From Mycobacterium sp. UM_WGJ (GTDB taxonomy: Bacteria > Actinomycetota > Actinomycetes > Mycobacteriales > Mycobacteriaceae): a DNA stretch of 64,000 bases. The stretch is from the NCBI RefSeq assembly GCF_000455125.1, contig NZ_AUWR01000001.1, positions 33,512 through 97,511 of the forward strand, written 5' to 3'. The stretch's first letter is position 1. Each line of letters opens with the position of its first letter. Below, one piece after another: positions 6,260 through 16,038 of the stretch. The position numbers and the translations under genes are program-made. The notes under the pieces are model-generated. The model was not told where the DNA came from, made no database searches, and worked only from the letters and a program-made list of their open reading frames with translations.

Positions 6260-6766
6260 ATGAACGCCGTCGCAGGGACGGTAAGAAAGGTGGCCGGAGC
6301 GGCGAGCCGCGCGGTCACCATGACCACTGAGGCAGCCGGGGCGATCGGCGGGGCCGCAGTCAACGGGGTAATCGGCGGTGTCACGGGGGCGGCCGGCGGC
6401 GTGCAGCGCGGGCTGCGCACCGGCAGCCACTCGACTCCCGCGGCCGCGCTGACCTTGGGCGCCCTCGGCGTGACCGGGCTGGTCGAGTGGCCGGTGTTGG
6501 TCGCGGTGGGCGGCACCGCACTGGTGCTCAAACAACTGACCAACCGGTCGGATCACAACAAGGCGTCGGCCCAGGCCTCGACTGCGTCGGTACGGCCGCT
6601 CAGGGCGGCGCCGCCGGCGAAGGCGACAAAGCCGACGAAGGCGACGAAGCCGGTGAAATCGGCGAACTCGTCGACGTCAGCGCGTCGCGCCCCACAGCCG
6701 AAGAAGACAGCGGCACGGCAGCCACGCAGCGGCGCCAGCAGCAACCGCACTCGCACCCGCCACTAG
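6260..6766 (+). CDS. Small Lys/Ala-rich membrane-linked protein, Rv0426c-like
   Basis: 168 residues. The first 50 are Gly/Ala-rich and amphipathic, residues ~62-90 form one or two hydrophobic segments (TLGALGVTGLVEWPVLVAVG), and the last 70 are Lys/Pro/Arg-rich and likely disordered. No catalytic motif is visible. It lies 11 bp before ctpH, and the small hydrophobic protein after ctpH repeats the phrase EW/DWPV(L/A)VAV. This points to two related small partners flanking the ATPase. Function is unknown. Confidence 0.75.
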   Translation: MNAVAGTVRKVAGAASRAVTMTTEAAGAIGGAAVNGVIGGVTGAAGGVQRGLRTGSHSTPAAALTLGALGVTGLVEWPVLVAVGGTALVLKQLTNRSDHNKASAQASTASVRPLRAAPPAKATKPTKATKPVKSANSSTSARRAPQPKKTAARQPRSGASSNRTRTRH

Positions 6767-6777
6767 TCGGGTACCGA

Positions 6778-9700
6778 GTGAATTCAGACTCTTCCCTGCG
6801 TGCCGTCCGCCGCTTCTGGCCGCTGCGCGCAGCGAATTTCGGTGTCCAACTGACCTCAGCGCTGATCGAAGCCTCGGTCCAGACCGCTGCCGGAGTTGCC
6901 GCGGCTGTCCTGCCGAACGGTGACGGGGGCCCGGTGCTGTCCCGGCGCTGTTTCCGCGGCGAAGGGCGGGCCTGGGTCGAGATCCGTGGCCTCGACGGCC
7001 CCGCCGGTGACGAGCTGGCGACCGCCGTCGTGGAAGCCGCGCGCGCACTGCCCGGCGTGATCTCGGTCCGCTTGAACCACCCGTTGTCGCGTCTGGTGGT
7101 CGGGCTCGACTCAACCGCCGATGACGTCGTCTCGGTGCGTGAACTGTGCCACGTGGTGGCCGACGTCGAAAGCCGGCACAGCTTCGACTCTCCTGCGTCG
7201 AGCCTCGCTAACCGCACGGCGGAATCCCGCGGTCAAGCCCCGGTGAGTCTGCCCGGCGATGGAATGACCGAGACGCTGCGCGCCTTGACCGTCGGCGCCA
7301 ACATCGCCGGCTTGGGCGCCGCGACGGTGGGCCGGTTGCTGCGCCTGCCGGGCCTGCCGCTCGGTTTGGAGGCCGGCGTCGTCCTCGTCGACTACCAGCC
7401 TCGGGTGCGCCGACTGCTGGAGGACCGCCTCGGCAAGCAGGCAACCGATGCGCTGTTGGCACTGGCCAGCGCCGGCGTGCACACCCTCAACACCGCGCCG
7501 ACCACGCTGGCGGTGGACTTGTCGGTGGAGGCGATGCGCGCCGGGGAGGAACGCGCCGCGGCCCGCGCCTGGCGCCGCCACGAGCCGGAGCTCGCCCACC
7601 ACGCCGATCATCCGCCGGTGACCGTTCCGCAGCGGCCGGCGCCGCGGCCGCCGGGTCCGGTCGAGCGCCACCTGACCCGCAGCGCCTGGGCACAACTCCT
7701 GGGCGCTGGGGTGATCGGCGCCGCGACCCGCAATCCCGACCTGGCCGGCACGGCCGCCGCGGTGACCGCGCCGAAGGCCACCCGCACCGCACGCGAGTCC
7801 TTCGCCGCCACCCTGGGCCGGGGCCTGGCCGATCACCACGGCACGGTGGTGCTGCGGCCGGGCAGCCTGCGTGAACTCGACCGCGTCGACACCGTGGTCA
7901 TCGATCCTCGGGTGCTATGCGGCGAGACGTTGCGGGTGATGCAGGTGCGCGGCGCCGACGACGACGACTTGCGCGCCGCATGGGCGCAGGCCCAGGCACG
8001 CCTGACCGACGCCGACCTCAAACCGGGTTGGCACCGCATCGGACCACGCCCCGGGGTGCAGGCGTCATTCCAGCCCGCGCTATTGCCGCTGGCCGCCGCG
8101 GTGGTGACCGAGGCGCGCCGCGCCGACGTCGAGGTGTTCTCGGTGGAGGCCGACGCGCTCGGGGAGCTGCGGCCGGTCTTCGACGAGATCCGGCCCCTGG
8201 ACGGCGCCTCGGTAGACCAGGCGCTGGCCGCCGCGGTAACCGCCTACCAGGCCGACGGCCATGACGTCGCGGTGCTGTCCGCGGTAGCCGTGGAGGCGCT
8301 GGCTGCGGCCGACGTGGCGCTGGGCGTGCTGCCGGGACAAGGTGTCCCGCCGTGGTGCGCCGATGTGTTGCTGACCGACCTGGCTGCGGCCTGGCGGGTG
8401 TTGCACGCGCTGCCCGCGGCCCGCTCCGCCAGTCACCGTGGCGTGGAGATCTCCACCGGTGCCACGGCGTTGGGCTCGCTGCTACTGCTGCCCGGGGTGC
8501 GCGGTAGCGGGCCCGGGCCGGTGACCACGGGTGCGGCGGCCGGCGCGCTCTCGGGGTACTGGCTGGCGCGCCGTGCCGTGGATGCCGCGGTGCCGCGGCC
8601 GGCGGCGGTGCACGAGTGGCACGCGATGTCGGTCGACCAGGTCCGGGCGGTGTTGCCGCCGCCGGAGCTGGATGAGCCCGGCACCACCCACCATGCGCCG
8701 GCCGCCGCCGCTGCGCTGGCGGCGGTGGATCTGGCCCGCCGCGGGGCGCAGGCAACCGCGCCGCCGCGGCTGCTGCGGCAGTTTGCCCAGGCCGTGCGCA
8801 GTGAACTGTCCGACCCGATCACGCCCGTGCTGGCGCTGGGGGCCGCGGCCAGCGCGGTGCTGGGTTCACCCGTCGACGCGGTCCTGGTCGGTTCGGTGTT
8901 GGGCGGCAACGCGATGCTCGCGGCCGCGCAGCGCCTGGTCGCGGAGCGCCGGCTCAACGTGCTGCTGAACGAGCAGGTTCCGCCGGCGCGCAGGGTCCTG
9001 CCCGACGGAAGCCACGTTGAGATTCCGGCCGAGGAACTGCGGCCCGGCGATGTGATCGAGGTGCACTCCCATGAGGTGGTGCCCGCCGACGGCCGGTTGA
9101 TCGACGCGACCGACCTGGAGGTCGACGAGTCGTCGCTGACCGGTGAGTCGCTCACGGTGGTTAAGCAGGTCGAGGCCACGCCGGGTGCCGATCTGGCCGA
9201 GCGGGAATGCATGGTCTACGCCGGTACCACCGTCGTCACCGGAACCGCGGTGGCTTTGGTGACCGCGGTGGGCGGCGACACCCACGGGAGGCGGGCCGCC
9301 GAACTGGTCGCCGGCGATCAGTCCGCGATCGGGCTGCAGCATCAGCTGAGCCTGCTGACCAGCAAGGCCTGGCGGATCAGCCTGGCCGGCGGCGCGCTGG
9401 TGACCGGGCTGGGGATGGCCCGCCGGATCGGGTTGCGGCAGGCGGTGGCCAGCGGCATCGCGGTCAGCGTCGCAGCTATTCCCGAAGGGCTTCCGCTGGT
9501 GGCCACCTTGTCACAGCAGGCGTCGGCCCGACGACTGACCAAGGCCGGTGTGCTGGTGCGGGTGCCGCGTTCGGTGGAGGCGCTCGGCCGTGTCGACGTG
9601 GTCTGCTTCGACAAGACCGGCACGCTGAGCCGCAACCGGCTGCGGGTGTCGCAGGTGCACCCTGCCACGGGTTTCACCGAGCACGACGTGCTGCGCTTTG

Positions 9701-11304
9701 CTGCCGCCGCGGCGCCGGTCCCCAACGGCACCCGGCAGGTGCACGCCACCGACACCGCCATCGTGGAGGGCGCGGCGCTGGCCGGAGTCGCCGGCGCACC
9801 GACAGGGCCGGTCGCGCACCTGCCGTTCCGCTCCGGGCGTCAGTTCTCGGCCTCGATACGGGGAACCGAGTTGACCCTCAAGGGTGCCCCAGAAGTGGTG
9901 CTGGCGTGCGCCGGGGCGGGCCCGGCGATCAAGAAGTCGGTGGCCACCTTGGCCGCCGAGGGGCTGCGCGTGATTGCGGTTGCCCGCCGCCAATTGACCC
10001 CGGCAGAACGCGCCGCCCTGAGCATCGATCCCGAACCCGAGGAGATCGCAGAGTACTGCCGCGACGGTCTGACCTTCGTGGGCCTGCTCGGTCTGTCGGA
10101 CACGCCGCGCGACGAGGCCACCGAACTGCTCGCCGACCTCAAGCGCCGGCGAATCCCGGTGCGGCTCATCACCGGCGACCACCCGCTGACCGCCACCGCG
10201 ATCGCCCGGGAGCTGGGACTGGACGTCGACGACGATCAGGTGATCACAGGCGCGCAGTGGGATGCGTTGTCCCGCAAGGGCCAAGAGGTTGCGGTCGCCG
10301 AGCGCGTGGTGTTCGCCCGGATGTCTCCGGAGAACAAGGTGCAGATCGTCCAGACGCTGGAGCGCACCGGCAAGGTGTCGGCGATGGTCGGCGACGGAGC
10401 CAACGACGCCGCGGCGATCCGGGCCGCCACCGTGGGGATCGCGGTGGTCGCGCACGGCAGCGAAGCGGCCAGCACCGCCGCAGACGTAGTGCTGCTCGAC
10501 GAGCGGATCGACACCCTTCTGGATGCGTTGGACGAAGGCCGCGAGCTGTGGCAGCGGGTACAGGCCGCGGTGGCGGTGCTGCTGGGCGGCAATGCCGGTG
10601 AGGTGGCCTTCGCGATCATCGGGAGCGCGCTGACCGGTCGCTCGCCGCTGAACGCACGCCAGCTGTTGCTGGTCAACATGCTGACCGACGCGCTGCCGGC
10701 CACCGCGCTGGCGGTCAGTTCGCTCAATGAGCAGGCCGCCGCCGGCGGGCACGGTCCCGACGAACGCGCGCTGTGGCGCACGGTGGGCGTGCGCGGCGTG
10801 ACGACGGCGTCGGCCGCGGTGACCGCCTGGGGTCTGGCTTCGGTCACCGGGCGCCCGCAGCGGGCCTCCACGGTGGCGTTGGTGTCGCTGGTCGCCACGC
10901 AACTGGGGCAGACTCTGCTGGATTCGCGTGATCCGCTGGTGGTGGCGACCGCTGTCGGCTCGCTGGGCATGATGGGGACGCTGATCACCATCCCCGGTAT
11001 CAGCCAGCTGCTGGGCTGCACTCCGATCGGGCCTCTGGGCTGGGCCCAGGCTCTGGGTACGGCGACGGTGGCCACCGTCGGCGCAGCCGTGGTGCCCAAA
11101 CTGCTGTCGGGGGCGCGGGACGACATGGCCAAGCCGAAGGAGTTCATCGTGCCCGGGCCGCGTCAACCGGACCGCCCGCAGGAATCATCCGACGGTCACC
11201 CGGCGCCGCGGCTGCGGCTTGTGCACAATGGGGACACTGGCTCCCGCCGCGGAACGGTCGCGGCTCGATCATCCGGCGACCCGTCGCCACCAGGAGGTTC
11301 ATGA
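6778..11304 (+). CDS. ctpH: Large P-type cation ATPase (CtpH-like)
   Basis: 1508 residues from GTG at 6778. The C-terminal ~700 residues are a P2-type (Ca2+/Mg2+-like) P-type ATPase: actuator SLTGESLTV, membrane motif PEGLP (902-906), phosphorylation site CFDKTGTLS with Asp945, and hinge VGDGANDAAAI. The first ~650 residues are an actinobacterial extension with no known role. The longer open frame upstream overlaps the previous gene and is not used. A copy of the 40-bp repeat lies in frame at residues ~134-146. The substrate is uncertain: Ca2+ or another divalent ion is the family guess. The next gene overlaps by four bp. Confidence 0.85.
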   Translation: MNSDSSLRAVRRFWPLRAANFGVQLTSALIEASVQTAAGVAAAVLPNGDGGPVLSRRCFRGEGRAWVEIRGLDGPAGDELATAVVEAARALPGVISVRLNHPLSRLVVGLDSTADDVVSVRELCHVVADVESRHSFDSPASSLANRTAESRGQAPVSLPGDGMTETLRALTVGANIAGLGAATVGRLLRLPGLPLGLEAGVVLVDYQPRVRRLLEDRLGKQATDALLALASAGVHTLNTAPTTLAVDLSVEAMRAGEERAAARAWRRHEPELAHHADHPPVTVPQRPAPRPPGPVERHLTRSAWAQLLGAGVIGAATRNPDLAGTAAAVTAPKATRTARESFAATLGRGLADHHGTVVLRPGSLRELDRVDTVVIDPRVLCGETLRVMQVRGADDDDLRAAWAQAQARLTDADLKPGWHRIGPRPGVQASFQPALLPLAAAVVTEARRADVEVFSVEADALGELRPVFDEIRPLDGASVDQALAAAVTAYQADGHDVAVLSAVAVEALAAADVALGVLPGQGVPPWCADVLLTDLAAAWRVLHALPAARSASHRGVEISTGATALGSLLLLPGVRGSGPGPVTTGAAAGALSGYWLARRAVDAAVPRPAAVHEWHAMSVDQVRAVLPPPELDEPGTTHHAPAAAAALAAVDLARRGAQATAPPRLLRQFAQAVRSELSDPITPVLALGAAASAVLGSPVDAVLVGSVLGGNAMLAAAQRLVAERRLNVLLNEQVPPARRVLPDGSHVEIPAEELRPGDVIEVHSHEVVPADGRLIDATDLEVDESSLTGESLTVVKQVEATPGADLAERECMVYAGTTVVTGTAVALVTAVGGDTHGRRAAELVAGDQSAIGLQHQLSLLTSKAWRISLAGGALVTGLGMARRIGLRQAVASGIAVSVAAIPEGLPLVATLSQQASARRLTKAGVLVRVPRSVEALGRVDVVCFDKTGTLSRNRLRVSQVHPATGFTEHDVLRFAAAAAPVPNGTRQVHATDTAIVEGAALAGVAGAPTGPVAHLPFRSGRQFSASIRGTELTLKGAPEVVLACAGAGPAIKKSVATLAAEGLRVIAVARRQLTPAERAALSIDPEPEEIAEYCRDGLTFVGLLGLSDTPRDEATELLADLKRRRIPVRLITGDHPLTATAIARELGLDVDDDQVITGAQWDALSRKGQEVAVAERVVFARMSPENKVQIVQTLERTGKVSAMVGDGANDAAAIRAATVGIAVVAHGSEAASTAADVVLLDERIDTLLDALDEGRELWQRVQAAVAVLLGGNAGEVAFAIIGSALTGRSPLNARQLLLVNMLTDALPATALAVSSLNEQAAAGGHGPDERALWRTVGVRGVTTASAAVTAWGLASVTGRPQRASTVALVSLVATQLGQTLLDSRDPLVVATAVGSLGMMGTLITIPGISQLLGCTPIGPLGWAQALGTATVATVGAAVVPKLLSGARDDMAKPKEFIVPGPRQPDRPQESSDGHPAPRLRLVHNGDTGSRRGTVAARSSGDPSPPGGS
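7179..7215 (+). repeat. Dispersed repeat copy 2, inside ctpH
   Basis: CAGCTTCGACTCTCCTGCGT followed by CGAGCCTCGCTAACCGC; same orientation as copy 1 with about four differences and one base missing. It is in frame and encodes part of the segment SFDSPASSLANR in the poorly conserved N-terminal extension. Confidence 0.6.
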
Positions 11305-11576
11305 TGGCGGACAAGCCGCGGCGCAGCGCTTCCCAGCGCGAGGCAGTGGCCCACATTCGCGAGGCAGAGGGGTTCGCCGTTGAATTGCCGCTGTTCGGCA
11401 AGGTGACGGTGCCGCGGCCTGAGCAATTGGCCTACTACGGCGGGCTGGCGTTGCTGGCGGCTTTCGAGATCATCGACTGGCCGGTGGCCGTGGCGGTGGC
11501 TGCCGGCCACATTCTGGCCAGCAACCACCGCAGTGAGGTGCTCGAACAGCTCGGCGAGGCCCTAGAAGACGTCTAG
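11301..11576 (+). CDS. Small membrane protein partner of CtpH, Rv0424c-like
   Basis: 91 residues. The start ATG overlaps the ctpH stop (ATGATG), so it is translated with ctpH. Residues ~42-72 are hydrophobic (YYGGLALLAAFEIIDWPVAV) and form one or two membrane segments; the ends are charged. A second ATG one codon later is equally possible. No enzymatic motif. The tight coupling suggests a subunit or regulator of the pump, which is inference. Confidence 0.75.
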   Translation: MMADKPRRSASQREAVAHIREAEGFAVELPLFGKVTVPRPEQLAYYGGLALLAAFEIIDWPVAVAVAAGHILASNHRSEVLEQLGEALEDV

Positions 11577-11599: not shown

Positions 11600-11794
11600 T
11601 CAGTTGTTGACGGTCAGCACTCCGACGCGCCACAGGAGTGCGTACATCTGGTGCAGCGGGCCACTGAGCAGCCGAGTGGTCATGTCGACCACCGGGTCTG
11701 AGGTAGGCGCGGCAGGACGGCGGTCCAGCTTCTTCGGCGCGCTGGTGGCGCGCGGGGCCGGAGCCGTGATGTCGGTGTAGGCGATTGCAACCAT
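11600..11794 (-). CDS. 64-residue protein under an M-box riboswitch
   Basis: Starts at ATG 11794 with a strong AGGAGG ribosome site five nt upstream. The first ~35 residues are Ala/Pro/Thr-rich; the conserved-looking part is the C-terminus TTRLLSGPLHQMYALLWRVG. No membrane helix is certain. A leftward M-box lies about 300 nt upstream, so expression should rise at low Mg2+. In M. tuberculosis an M-box precedes the small unknown gene Rv1535; this may be its counterpart, but I cannot confirm the alignment. Function is not known. Confidence 0.65.
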   Translation of the reverse strand: MVAIAYTDITAPAPRATSAPKKLDRRPAAPTSDPVVDMTTRLLSGPLHQMYALLWRVGVLTVNN

Positions 11795-11852
11795 GATGGC
11801 CTCCTAGTCGCGTAACGGTGCTACGCGCTCAGCTGAAGGCCGGAGTCGTGGC

Positions 11853-11933
11853 TCAGCGGGAGGCGGTATGCGACCGTTCGGATGGGGACGGAACTGATGT
11901 CAGATATCGGCTCGGACTATCACCGGAACTCAT
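11853..11933 (-). CDS. 26-codon leader ORF in the M-box transcript
   Basis: ATG at 11931-11933 (minus strand) follows a strong GAGGAGGTGA ribosome site. The peptide is Ser/Pro-rich (starts MSSGDSPSRYLTSV) and ends with TGA 59 bp before the 64-residue gene. It lies between the riboswitch core and the structural gene, the right place for a regulatory uORF or for protection of the RNA from Rho. Short length makes it uncertain; the ribosome site is the main evidence. Confidence 0.4.
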   Translation of the reverse strand: MSSGDSPSRYLTSVPSPSERSHTASR

Positions 11934-12099
11934 TCGTCCCTCACCTCCTCTCGGTCGCGGGCGCGCCGTGGTGCGCCGGTTTCACCGCATGCTCAGGAGG
12001 GCAGCTCCGACGACTGTCGGAAGACCGCACCCCTCTCGTCAGAGTTTTGACACTGCACGGCGTGTCCCAATCCGGGAAGCCACTTGGGCTCAACCCTTA

Positions 12100-12198
12100 A
12101 GCCGGGAGGAGCTGTCCTGACCCGGGGCGTCTTTCGACGTTCGGGGTCAGTGGCCTATGTCCGTGCAGACGCCTCACCTAACGAGGTGCTTGCACGGT
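12100..12198 (-). ncRNA. M-box (ykoK) Mg2+ riboswitch
   Basis: Read on the minus strand, the region contains the hallmark CGTTAGGTGAGGC (12170-12185 area), then GGCCACTGACCCC, then the stem-loop ACGTCGAAAGACGCC, then CGGGTCA, in the order and spacing of M-box RNAs. The stem at 12119-12148 pairs 12 of 13 positions around a 4-nt loop. M-boxes fold with bound Mg2+ and switch off downstream expression. A GC hairpin at 12006-12021 (TCCGAC-AGTC-GTCGGA) could be part of the expression platform; no T-tract follows it, so Rho-dependent control is also possible. Confidence 0.88.
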
Positions 12199-12200
12199 CC

Positions 12201-12229
12201 ATAGTGCACCACCGACGGGGTGCGGTCAA
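12201..12229 (-). promoter_or_regulatory. Promoter of the M-box transcript
   Basis: On the minus strand TTGACC (12224-12229) is separated by 17 nt from CACTAT (12201-12206). This is a good SigA-type pair, and it puts the transcription start at about 12194, just before the riboswitch core. The rest of 12230-12380 shows no gene or structure that I can support. Confidence 0.55.
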
Positions 12230-12380: not shown

Positions 12381-14147
12381 TTAGTCCTTCAGATTCAGCG
12401 GCTCGACGGCATAGCGCCCCGGCGTCCGCCACGACGCGAGCGCACCGAGCAGCATCATGACCGCCGCGGCGGCAAAGACCACTGCGAGACCCGTATGGAA
12501 CGGCCCGGAGATCAGCTGCGGGAAGAAGCTGTGGCCGGTCAACGTCTCGGCATCAACGCCGGGTGCGGCCAGCGCGCCCGACGGCGCCAAGAGTTCGGCA
12601 ATCGGGTTGTAGCCCAGAAACGCCGCGAAGAGGCTGCCCACCGGCGGGGTGTTGGCTATCTGATCGGCGACACCGGCCGAGACGCCCTCCTGCCGCAACC
12701 CAGCAGCCAGCGCCGCCGGCAACGTCTCGGCCAGCCCGATCACCATCAGCGAGAAGAAGATTCCGATCGACAACGAGGTGCCGGCGTTGAAGAACGTGGC
12801 CCGCACACCGGAGGCCGCCCCTCGCTGGTCGGCCGGGACACTGGACATGACCACGGCACTGTTGGGCGCGGTGAAGATTCCGCCACCCAGTCCGTTGAGG
12901 AAGACCAGCGCCGCGAACACCCGGTAGTCGAAGTTCACCGGCAGCAACACCAGACCCACGAACGTCGCCGCCATCAGCACCATGCCGCCGACCGTGAACG
13001 GACGGGCACCGCGGCGGTCCGACAACGATCCGGCCACCGGACCGGCCAACAGGAACCCGGCCGTCATGGGCAGCAGATAGATACCGGCCCACAACGGCGT
13101 CGATTCGTAGCTATAGCCGTGCAGCGGTAGCCAGATGCCCTGCAGCCAGATGATCAGCATGAACTGCATGCCGCCGCGCCCGATCGCCGACAGCAAGCCT
13201 GCCGCGTTGGCCATACCGAACGCCGGAATCGCGAAGAGCCGAACGTCCAGCAGCGGAGCGGCAACCCGTAGCTCGATGAAACAGAACAGCACCAACAGCG
13301 CCACTCCGAGCCCGAGCGCACCCAGCACAACCGGGTTGGCCCAGCTGGTGGGCGAAGACCCATGCGGCTGAATGCTGTAGGTGATGGCGGTCAGCACCAC
13401 GGTCAGGCCCAACCCAAGCGTCGCGGTGCCCGCCCAGTCCAGCTTCGCCGGCGCCCGCTCCCCGAGTTCGTGCAGTGAACGTACCGACCAGATGGTGCCC
13501 AGCACTCCGATCGGGACCCCGACCCAGAACACCGCCCGCCAGTCCCATTCCGACAGCACGCCGCCGATCAACAGGCCAACAAAGGACCCGGCGACTGCGG
13601 CCACCTGGTTGACACCCAGCGCCATGCCACGCTGATTGGCCGGGAACGCGTCGGTGAGGATCGCTGAGGACGACGCCATCAGCATCGCCCCGCCGACGCC
13701 CTGCACCACCCGCCACGCGATCAGCCACTGGGCACCGCGGCCCATGTCGAACGGGTCGATCGACAGCGCGATCGCCGCGACGGTGAACACCACGAAGCCC
13801 AAGTTGTAGATGCGCACCCGGCCGAACATGTCGCCGAGCCGGCCGAAGAACACCACCAGCACAGCCGACACCAGCAGATAGCCCATCAACATCCACAGCA
13901 GGTAACTGACGTTCGCCGGCTCCAGCGGATTGAGGCCGATACCCCGAAAGATCGCCGGCATCGAGATCAACACGATCGAGCCGTTGATGGTGGCGAGCAG
14001 AACACCCAGTGTGGTGTTGGACAGCGCGACCCATTTGTAGCGCGGGTGGCCACGGTCGTAGCGCAGCTGGCGGCGGGCGGTGGCAGGTCCCTCCGCGGCG
14101 CCCGGGTCCGGGACACCGGTGTTCACCTGCTCAATCTGCGCCGTCAT
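12381..14147 (-). CDS. MFS drug exporter, DHA2 (14-helix) family
   Basis: 588 residues. About 14 membrane helices. Motif [13 protein letters not shown] lies after helix 2 and a motif C-like stretch [12 protein letters not shown] in helix 5, as in EmrB/QacA-type proton antiporters that export drugs or lipids. The start is taken at ATG 14147, with GGGAG upstream; an upstream in-frame ATG adds 11 residues without a ribosome site. Divergent from thiC. The upstream region has an 8-bp palindrome TTAGCTAA (14184-14191) that may be an operator or just part of the promoter. Confidence 0.88.
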
Positions 14148-14211
14148 AACTCTCCCAGCTACTTCCACCCCAAAGCGCATATGTTAGCTAAGCAAATGAT
14201 CGGTTGCCTAA

Positions 14212-16038
<1,827 letters not shown>

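Follow-up and report, generated by a model that had tools for sequence, protein, structure and literature searches.

A Mg2+ riboswitch unit with an Rv1535-family small protein beside a putative CtpH-type ATPase system in mycobacteria

The M-box (ykoK) riboswitch of Bacillus subtilis is a transcriptional OFF switch. For Mycobacterium tuberculosis two M-box leaders are described in PMC12810186, that of pe20 (rv1806), whose target is a PE/PPE-mgtC operon, and that of rv1535. The Mg2+ response was shown in this species, and for the pe20 leader also a translational platform with Rho termination (PMC12810186, PMC7755994); for rv1535 the platform was proposed by homology only, and Rho depletion changed its termination only marginally (PMC12810186). 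Rv1535 was induced 13.2-fold by Mg2+ starvation (cited in PMC7755994) and a reporter of its leader gave a 2-fold Mg2+ response (PMC7755994). The uORFs of Rv1535 have been published, and its function was called unknown in 2026 (PMC12810186).

A second line of work concerns the P-type ATPases CtpH and CtpI, for which transport of alkali or alkaline-earth ions was predicted and which had been filed as FUPA24 (PMC3573892). A 2023 review calls them uncharacterised and perhaps a family of their own (PMC10654040). Rv0424c has one predicted transmembrane segment and is reported as overexpressed in the membrane fraction (PMC2396618). A search of the open-licence literature found no paper linking Rv1535 to CtpH or Rv0424c, and the terms 'ctp', 'P-type' and 'glmS' are absent from the available text of PMC12810186.

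Here we analyzed an M-box unit on the minus strand (12229-11600) of the window, the whole 64-kb stretch of DNA under study. The layout of the unit equals that of the two M. tuberculosis leaders as given in PMC12810186. With the Rv1535 leader it shares the RF00380 M-box, a uORF1 at the aptamer end, a Pro7 uORF2 and an Rv1535-domain protein (PMC12810186, PMC3207917, PMC7755994), and with the pe20 leader the uORFs and the order of SD1, anti-SD and SD2 (PMC12810186). The Mg2+ response of the Rv1535 gene and leader is in print, for the M. tuberculosis homologue only, and this kind of unit is therefore already known. The original prediction had called the 64-residue protein unrecognised and the system poorly described; the family, its Mg2+ response and its uORFs were in the literature, and what stands of that claim is that the function of the protein is undescribed.

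The differences lie in the target and its surroundings. In the clade of the window the unit is situated between an MFS gene with thiC and a 91-aa gene with ctpH, and not beside ileS as in M. tuberculosis. Compared with the aligned slow-grower M-box copies, the window protein has a shorter and different N-terminus (MVAIAYTDI...). In place of the PE/PPE-mgtC operon of pe20, the target is a 64-aa protein. The B. subtilis ykoK M-box belongs to the same aptamer family; in the window no intrinsic terminator was found, and the target is not a transporter.

The nearest named relatives belong to Mycolicibacter (M. terrae complex), the 15 best matches being proteins of this genus at 79-92% identity. Judged by these named relatives, a list from which the window's own record is possibly absent, the window is placed in Mycolicibacter, in the M. 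terrae complex.

The M-box leader

The features of the unit and its neighbours are collected in Table 1. Along the minus strand, the promoter is followed by the aptamer, SD1 with the uORF1 start, the anti-SD, SD2, uORF2, SD3 and the 64-codon gene. Every part named in the original prediction was present, including the promoter, the M-box with its core, the short ORF with a strong ribosome site, which is uORF2, and the 64-residue frame with its AGGAGG; uORF1 and the anti-SD at 12001-11995 had been overlooked.

Table 1. Coordinates of the M-box unit and the adjoining genes in the window.
Feature	Coordinates	Strand	Description	Basis
Promoter	12201..12229	-	-35 TTGACC 12229-12224, 17-nt spacer, -10 CACTAT 12206-12201	sequence and conservation
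M-box (ykoK) Mg2+ riboswitch aptamer	12192-12024	-	model 1-169 of 169	RF00380, 154.9 bits
Switch hairpin	11995..12037	-	SD1/P1-3' strand pairs with anti-SD CCCTCCT (12001-11995) around covarying inner stem	folding and alignment
uORF1	11941..12030	-	29 codons; GTG start at 12030 beside SD1, within the P1 3' strand of the aptamer	sequence
uORF2	11853..11933	-	MSSGDSPSRY..., 26 codons, Pro7; SD2 AGGAGG 11949-11944	sequence
64-aa Rv1535-family protein	11600..11794	-	SD AGGAGG 11805-11800; conserved C-terminal domain residues 33-63, predicted helix 34-57	profiles
91-aa small protein	11301..11576	+	convergent neighbour, one hydrophobic stretch	hydropathy
Large P-type ATPase	6487..11304	+		Pfam E1-E2_ATPase, Hydrolase, Cation_ATPase_C

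The identity of the M-box is beyond doubt. The covariance-model search that had been proposed as a check returned the full-length aptamer with 154.9 bits against a gathering score of 44 (E 1.9e-35), with the core CGTTAGGTGAGGC at 12183-12171 (-), and this was the sole Rfam match at gathering score within the window. A TPP riboswitch before thiC (14296-14400, plus strand) was missed by the default scan because its 53.4 bits fall just below the gathering score of 54.3. The host genome (G000; 4.47 Mb, 116 contigs) contains two further M-boxes, L152 (G000:C20) and L003 (G000:C44). They are followed by a PE and a PPE gene, and both leaders carry uORF2 with a TTG instead of an ATG start.

The promoter was predicted as TTGACC-N17-CACTAT and is found as such. 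A generic sigma-70 consensus scan gave no promoter at the site, so the case for it is built on conservation: TTGAC was unvarying across 22 aligned leaders, the window and 21 related ones.

All 27 distinct leader segments, taken from Mycolicibacter and slow growers, formed a single hairpin spanning SD1 to the anti-SD, in which SD1 and CUCC shared three to five pairs; this fold is favoured because the segments were chosen to contain CTCC and cut just behind it. Equal stability was reached by a mean of 2.6% of shuffles. The inner stem was 93.2% paired and had 11 cells with two-sided change, a value reached by 0/500 shuffles; the pairs with two-sided change were two, which is not above shuffles (443/500). 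When the partner strand was slid by 1-3 columns, inner-stem pairing was at most 55.6%. CTCC was present in 28/28 leaders scored, with 0.44 expected; 29 leaders had been given, and L140 was dropped for a mismatch to the SD2 pattern. These hairpin tests came after a duplex-energy test, in which plain duplex energies were no better than shuffles (mean ranks of 0.58 for SD1 and 0.73 for SD2).

The Rfam alignment assigns SD1 to the 3' strand of P1 as well, and the hairpin and the ligand-bound aptamer are therefore mutually exclusive; in all 27 segments P1 would have to give way for the conserved pairing of SD1 with the anti-SD. The anti-SD is complementary to SD2 as well. Here both CTCC and the SD are kept and the pairing energy is not above shuffles; since the partners hardly vary, this pair cannot show covariation. 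The conserved, covarying hairpin supports the translational platform of PMC12810186. Between the convergent genes an intrinsic terminator was not found, and there was no common hairpin in 17 relatives.

The two upstream frames differ in how they are kept. uORF1 starts inside the 3' end of the aptamer, its stop overlaps SD2, and its position matches uORF1 of PMC12810186; in 16 Mycolicibacter leaders its length was variable and its dN/dS 1.33. uORF2 is the counterpart of Rv1805A/Rv1535A of the same paper and was present in 21/21 M-box/Rv1535 loci examined and in 0/17 glmS-type loci. Across the window and 15 Mycolicibacter loci it had pS 0.09, pN 0.03 and dN/dS 0.28, with constraint at synonymous sites too. 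For the 64-codon frame the same loci gave pS 0.29, pN 0.08 and dN/dS 0.24. The 64-codon gene, for which a lack of conservation among relatives had been named as grounds for rejection, is thus under purifying selection. These ratios indicate that uORF2 and the 64-aa protein are kept as peptides and that uORF1 is not.

The 64-residue protein and the Rv1535 family

The proposal that the protein is a counterpart of Rv1535 agreed with both curated profiles: NF040652 ('Mbox_reg_Rv1535', an equivalog) matched residues 1-63 with 80.2 bits (cut-off 62), and NF040653 (Rv1535 domain) matched the C-terminal 31 residues with 66.3 bits (cut-off 33). No match was obtained in Pfam at E up to 1, or with PADLOC. 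Alignments also bore out that the C-terminus is the conserved part, with P34, L43, P46, Y51, A52, W55, R56 and G58 invariant among 51 sequences. The AlphaFold model built with these 51 sequences had one helix (residues 34-57) at a mean pLDDT of 61.5 and a pTM of 0.29; block means were 71-80 for residues 31-60, and 22/64 residues fell below 50. With a moment of 0.43 the helix is amphipathic, and by hydropathy no transmembrane helix was found, the best 19-residue Kyte-Doolittle mean of 0.96 being too polar. The protein is thus modelled, at low overall confidence, as a disordered N-terminus followed by one amphipathic helix. A PDB profile search for a structural relative returned a designed filament only (E 0.94), which was rejected, and the AlphaFold model was dismissed as too weak and simple a basis for a fold search.

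Four arrangements of the family were observed: an M-box copy at ileS, an M-box copy at the 91-aa gene and ctpH, a copy at glmS without an M-box, and a copy at ctpH and the 91-aa gene without a listed M-box. In 148 genomes of the genus, an M-box was located upstream of at least 55 of the 150 NF040653 matches listed. Among the 80 named loci, which are the best 80 of 126 relatives, 28 were ileS sites (M-box core pattern present in 27), 17 were ctpH/91-aa sites (present in 17) and 35 were glmS sites (present in 0). The named slow growers have their M-box copy at ileS and not at ctpH; L040 is an ileS-type locus, as shown by its M-box and T-box matches. The M-box copy at the 91-aa gene and ctpH was found in Mycolicibacter, G096, Mycolicibacillus koreensis and a record named M. 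talmoniae, on whose contig no ctpH was found. An aptamer tree addressing the relative age of the ctpH and ileS sites of the M-box unit was mostly unresolved, with 28/43 inner branches open.

The family is wider than its M-box name. The one glmS-type protein scored reached 111.7 bits on 'Mbox_reg_Rv1535' against the cut-off of 62, although its locus (L036) is without an M-box, and no degenerate M-box was detected at E up to 1 before the glmS-type paralogues of five loci (L036, L037, L057, L058, L012). The profile name is corrected by this, as 35/80 named loci form a glmS-side branch without the M-box core and yet a scored member passes the cut-off. In 17/17 glmS-type loci (L113-L132 except L115, L116 and L125), the Rv1535 paralogue without M-box core is transcribed divergently from glmS and closely followed by a 279-aa gene, for which only a sub-threshold hydrolase match was obtained.

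Association with the 91-aa gene and CtpH-type ATPases

The convergent neighbour of the unit encodes a 91-aa protein that is presumably Rv0424c-like and matched nothing in Pfam or NCBIfam at E up to 1. Its gene overlaps by ATGA with that of the large P-type ATPase, which we take to be CtpH-type, and this overlap leaves no domain gene between the two in the window. The M-box copy is instead located beyond the 91-aa gene in convergent orientation, with 23 nt between the stop codons. The ATPase is one of four CtpH-type ATPases in the host genome. Its GTG start at 6487 may be too far upstream, as its alignments with the three paralogues of the genome and with the proteins of L191 and L218 begin only at residues 56-240; the protein of L181 aligns from residue 1. 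On the other side of the unit, a gene for a 599-aa MFS efflux-type transporter (12381-14180, minus strand) separates it from thiC in Mycolicibacter loci, and this gene was not found in G096 (L140).

Within the genus, the domain and the 91-aa protein occur in nearly the same genomes. The domain was detected in 94/148 genomes and the 91-aa protein in 94/146, with 92 shared (hypergeometric P 4e-34, uncorrected for kinship). Two genomes had only the domain and two (G027, G123) only the 91-aa protein; G112 and G116, where the domain matched at E about 1e-3 without the 91-aa protein, look marginal and were kept in the counts. Among the 150 listed domain matches, and with 85 Rv0424c-like places listed, such a place was divergent at 79-109 nt for 57 and convergent at 12-40 nt for 10, the spacings being measured between matches. 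No domain neighbour was present among the matches listed for 18/85 of the places; G011, G089, G103 and G146 do have one.

The ctpH-type domain genes of the fourth arrangement point into the ATPase gene, and the 91-aa gene is on their other side, divergent. Neighbours were searched at an E cut-off of 1e-8 in one set and 1e-5 in the other. Both partners were found at 27 of the 37 ctpH-type domain loci, the 91-aa gene only at 5, the ATPase only at 4, and neither at 1, which is on an 8.5-kb contig; the 37 loci include G224 from outside the genus and leave out G270 and L171, the latter being ileS-type. At L100, L103, L109, L110 and L169 the 91-aa and domain genes occur with no CtpH-type ATPase in the fetched stretch. 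Neither an ATPase nor a 91-aa gene was found in the fetched stretch of any of 29 loci at ileS or glmS sites. The host genome itself has two Rv1535-domain genes (E up to 0.001), situated at two different loci of its four CtpH-type ATPases.

Further afield, all 23 genomes with the domain in an order-wide sample also had the 91-aa protein, which was present in 37 more genomes without a detected domain. G224 showed a weak domain match (31.1 bits, cut-off 33) with the same neighbours, and G270, from another family, a weak domain match together with a gene resembling the 91-aa one and a partial CtpH match in a different layout. In one other family the 91-aa gene adjoins, in 8/8 loci, a protein that is 29-32% identical to part of the CtpH-type N-terminal half; the Rv1535-domain motif was not seen in the fetched 3.2 kb of these loci (L287-L294).

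A possible role at low Mg2+

The reading that we favour, with a probability of about 0.5, is that of a translational M-box unit switched off by Mg2+, whose 64-aa protein modulates the CtpH-type ATPase system when Mg2+ is low. With Mg2+ bound, SD1 would be sequestered in P1 of the aptamer; the anti-SD, free as a result, would mask the SD2 in front of uORF2, and Rho could act on the untranslated RNA. When Mg2+ is low, P1 would open, SD1 would pair with the anti-SD in the conserved hairpin and SD2 would be free; uORF2 would be translated and the transcript would extend to the 64-codon frame, for which a separate strong SD is present. Its product may then bind and modulate the CtpH-type ATPase, the Rv0424c-like partner or both at the membrane surface while Mg2+ is scarce. 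For the species of the window we infer both this OFF/ON logic and the ATPase system as target, the latter being a best guess from gene location. Co-expression with the ATPase is not implied, as the adjoining genes are convergent or divergent and not co-directional, and CtpH, being uncharacterised, has no known connection with Mg2+. As a working analogy, the protein would resemble phospholamban, sarcolipin and KdpF (PMC10654040), tiny single-helix proteins tied to a P-type ATPase, with the tie here given by gene location only. In contrast to phospholamban and KdpF, the predicted helix is not transmembrane by hydropathy and the gene is not in an operon with the pump.

It is also possible, at clearly lower odds, that the Mg2+-starvation protein has another target, such as the ribosome, a cell-envelope enzyme or the membrane surface, and that the Rv1535 domain simply arose beside ctpH and the 91-aa gene, a position that is then inherited and not functional. 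The M-box copies of named slow growers at ileS and the branch at glmS, with the ATPase system found at 0/29 of these loci in the fetched stretch, are consistent with such a target. The presence of the domain at two different ATPase paralogues in Mycolicibacter, its nearly complete sharing of genomes with the 91-aa protein and its persistence with the 91-aa gene in the 5/37 loci without an ATPase in the fetched stretch speak against this reading. That the uORF2 peptide is the main product and the 64-aa protein a poorly expressed follower appears unlikely. uORF2 is common to all three M-box leaders of the genome and to the 21 Rv1535-type loci, and in fusions of the pe20 leader in M. tuberculosis uORF2-lacZ was >10-fold above pe20-lacZ (PMC12810186); the 64-codon frame, however, has a dN/dS of 0.24 and its own AGGAGG, and the family occurs at glmS without uORF2 (0/17). 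An antisense RNA that at low Mg2+ extends through the convergent 91-aa and ctpH genes and reduces their output would fit the 23 nt between the stop codons, the failure to find an intrinsic terminator or a hairpin common to 17 relatives, and the ctpH-type domain genes that also point into the ctpH 3' end, but it is highly improbable given the protein-level constraint on the 64-codon frame and the slow-grower M-box copy at ileS, which cannot act in cis on ctpH.

The arrangement in the window would fit a Mg2+-controlled copy having taken the place of an unregulated one. More tentatively, Rv1535-domain microproteins might in general be dedicated partners of the orphan CtpH/CtpI-type (FUPA24) ATPases and the Rv0424c-like protein, with M-box control added later so that one copy became responsive to Mg2+ starvation; a Mg2+ riboswitch would then act on P-type ATPases whose substrate is unknown. 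The novelty lies in finding the Rv1535 domain and a P-type ATPase system inherited together and placed together, which offers a testable proposal for the function of the family. The finding of the Rv1535 family, the 91-aa protein and the CtpH-type ATPases together provides a first testable context for each of them.
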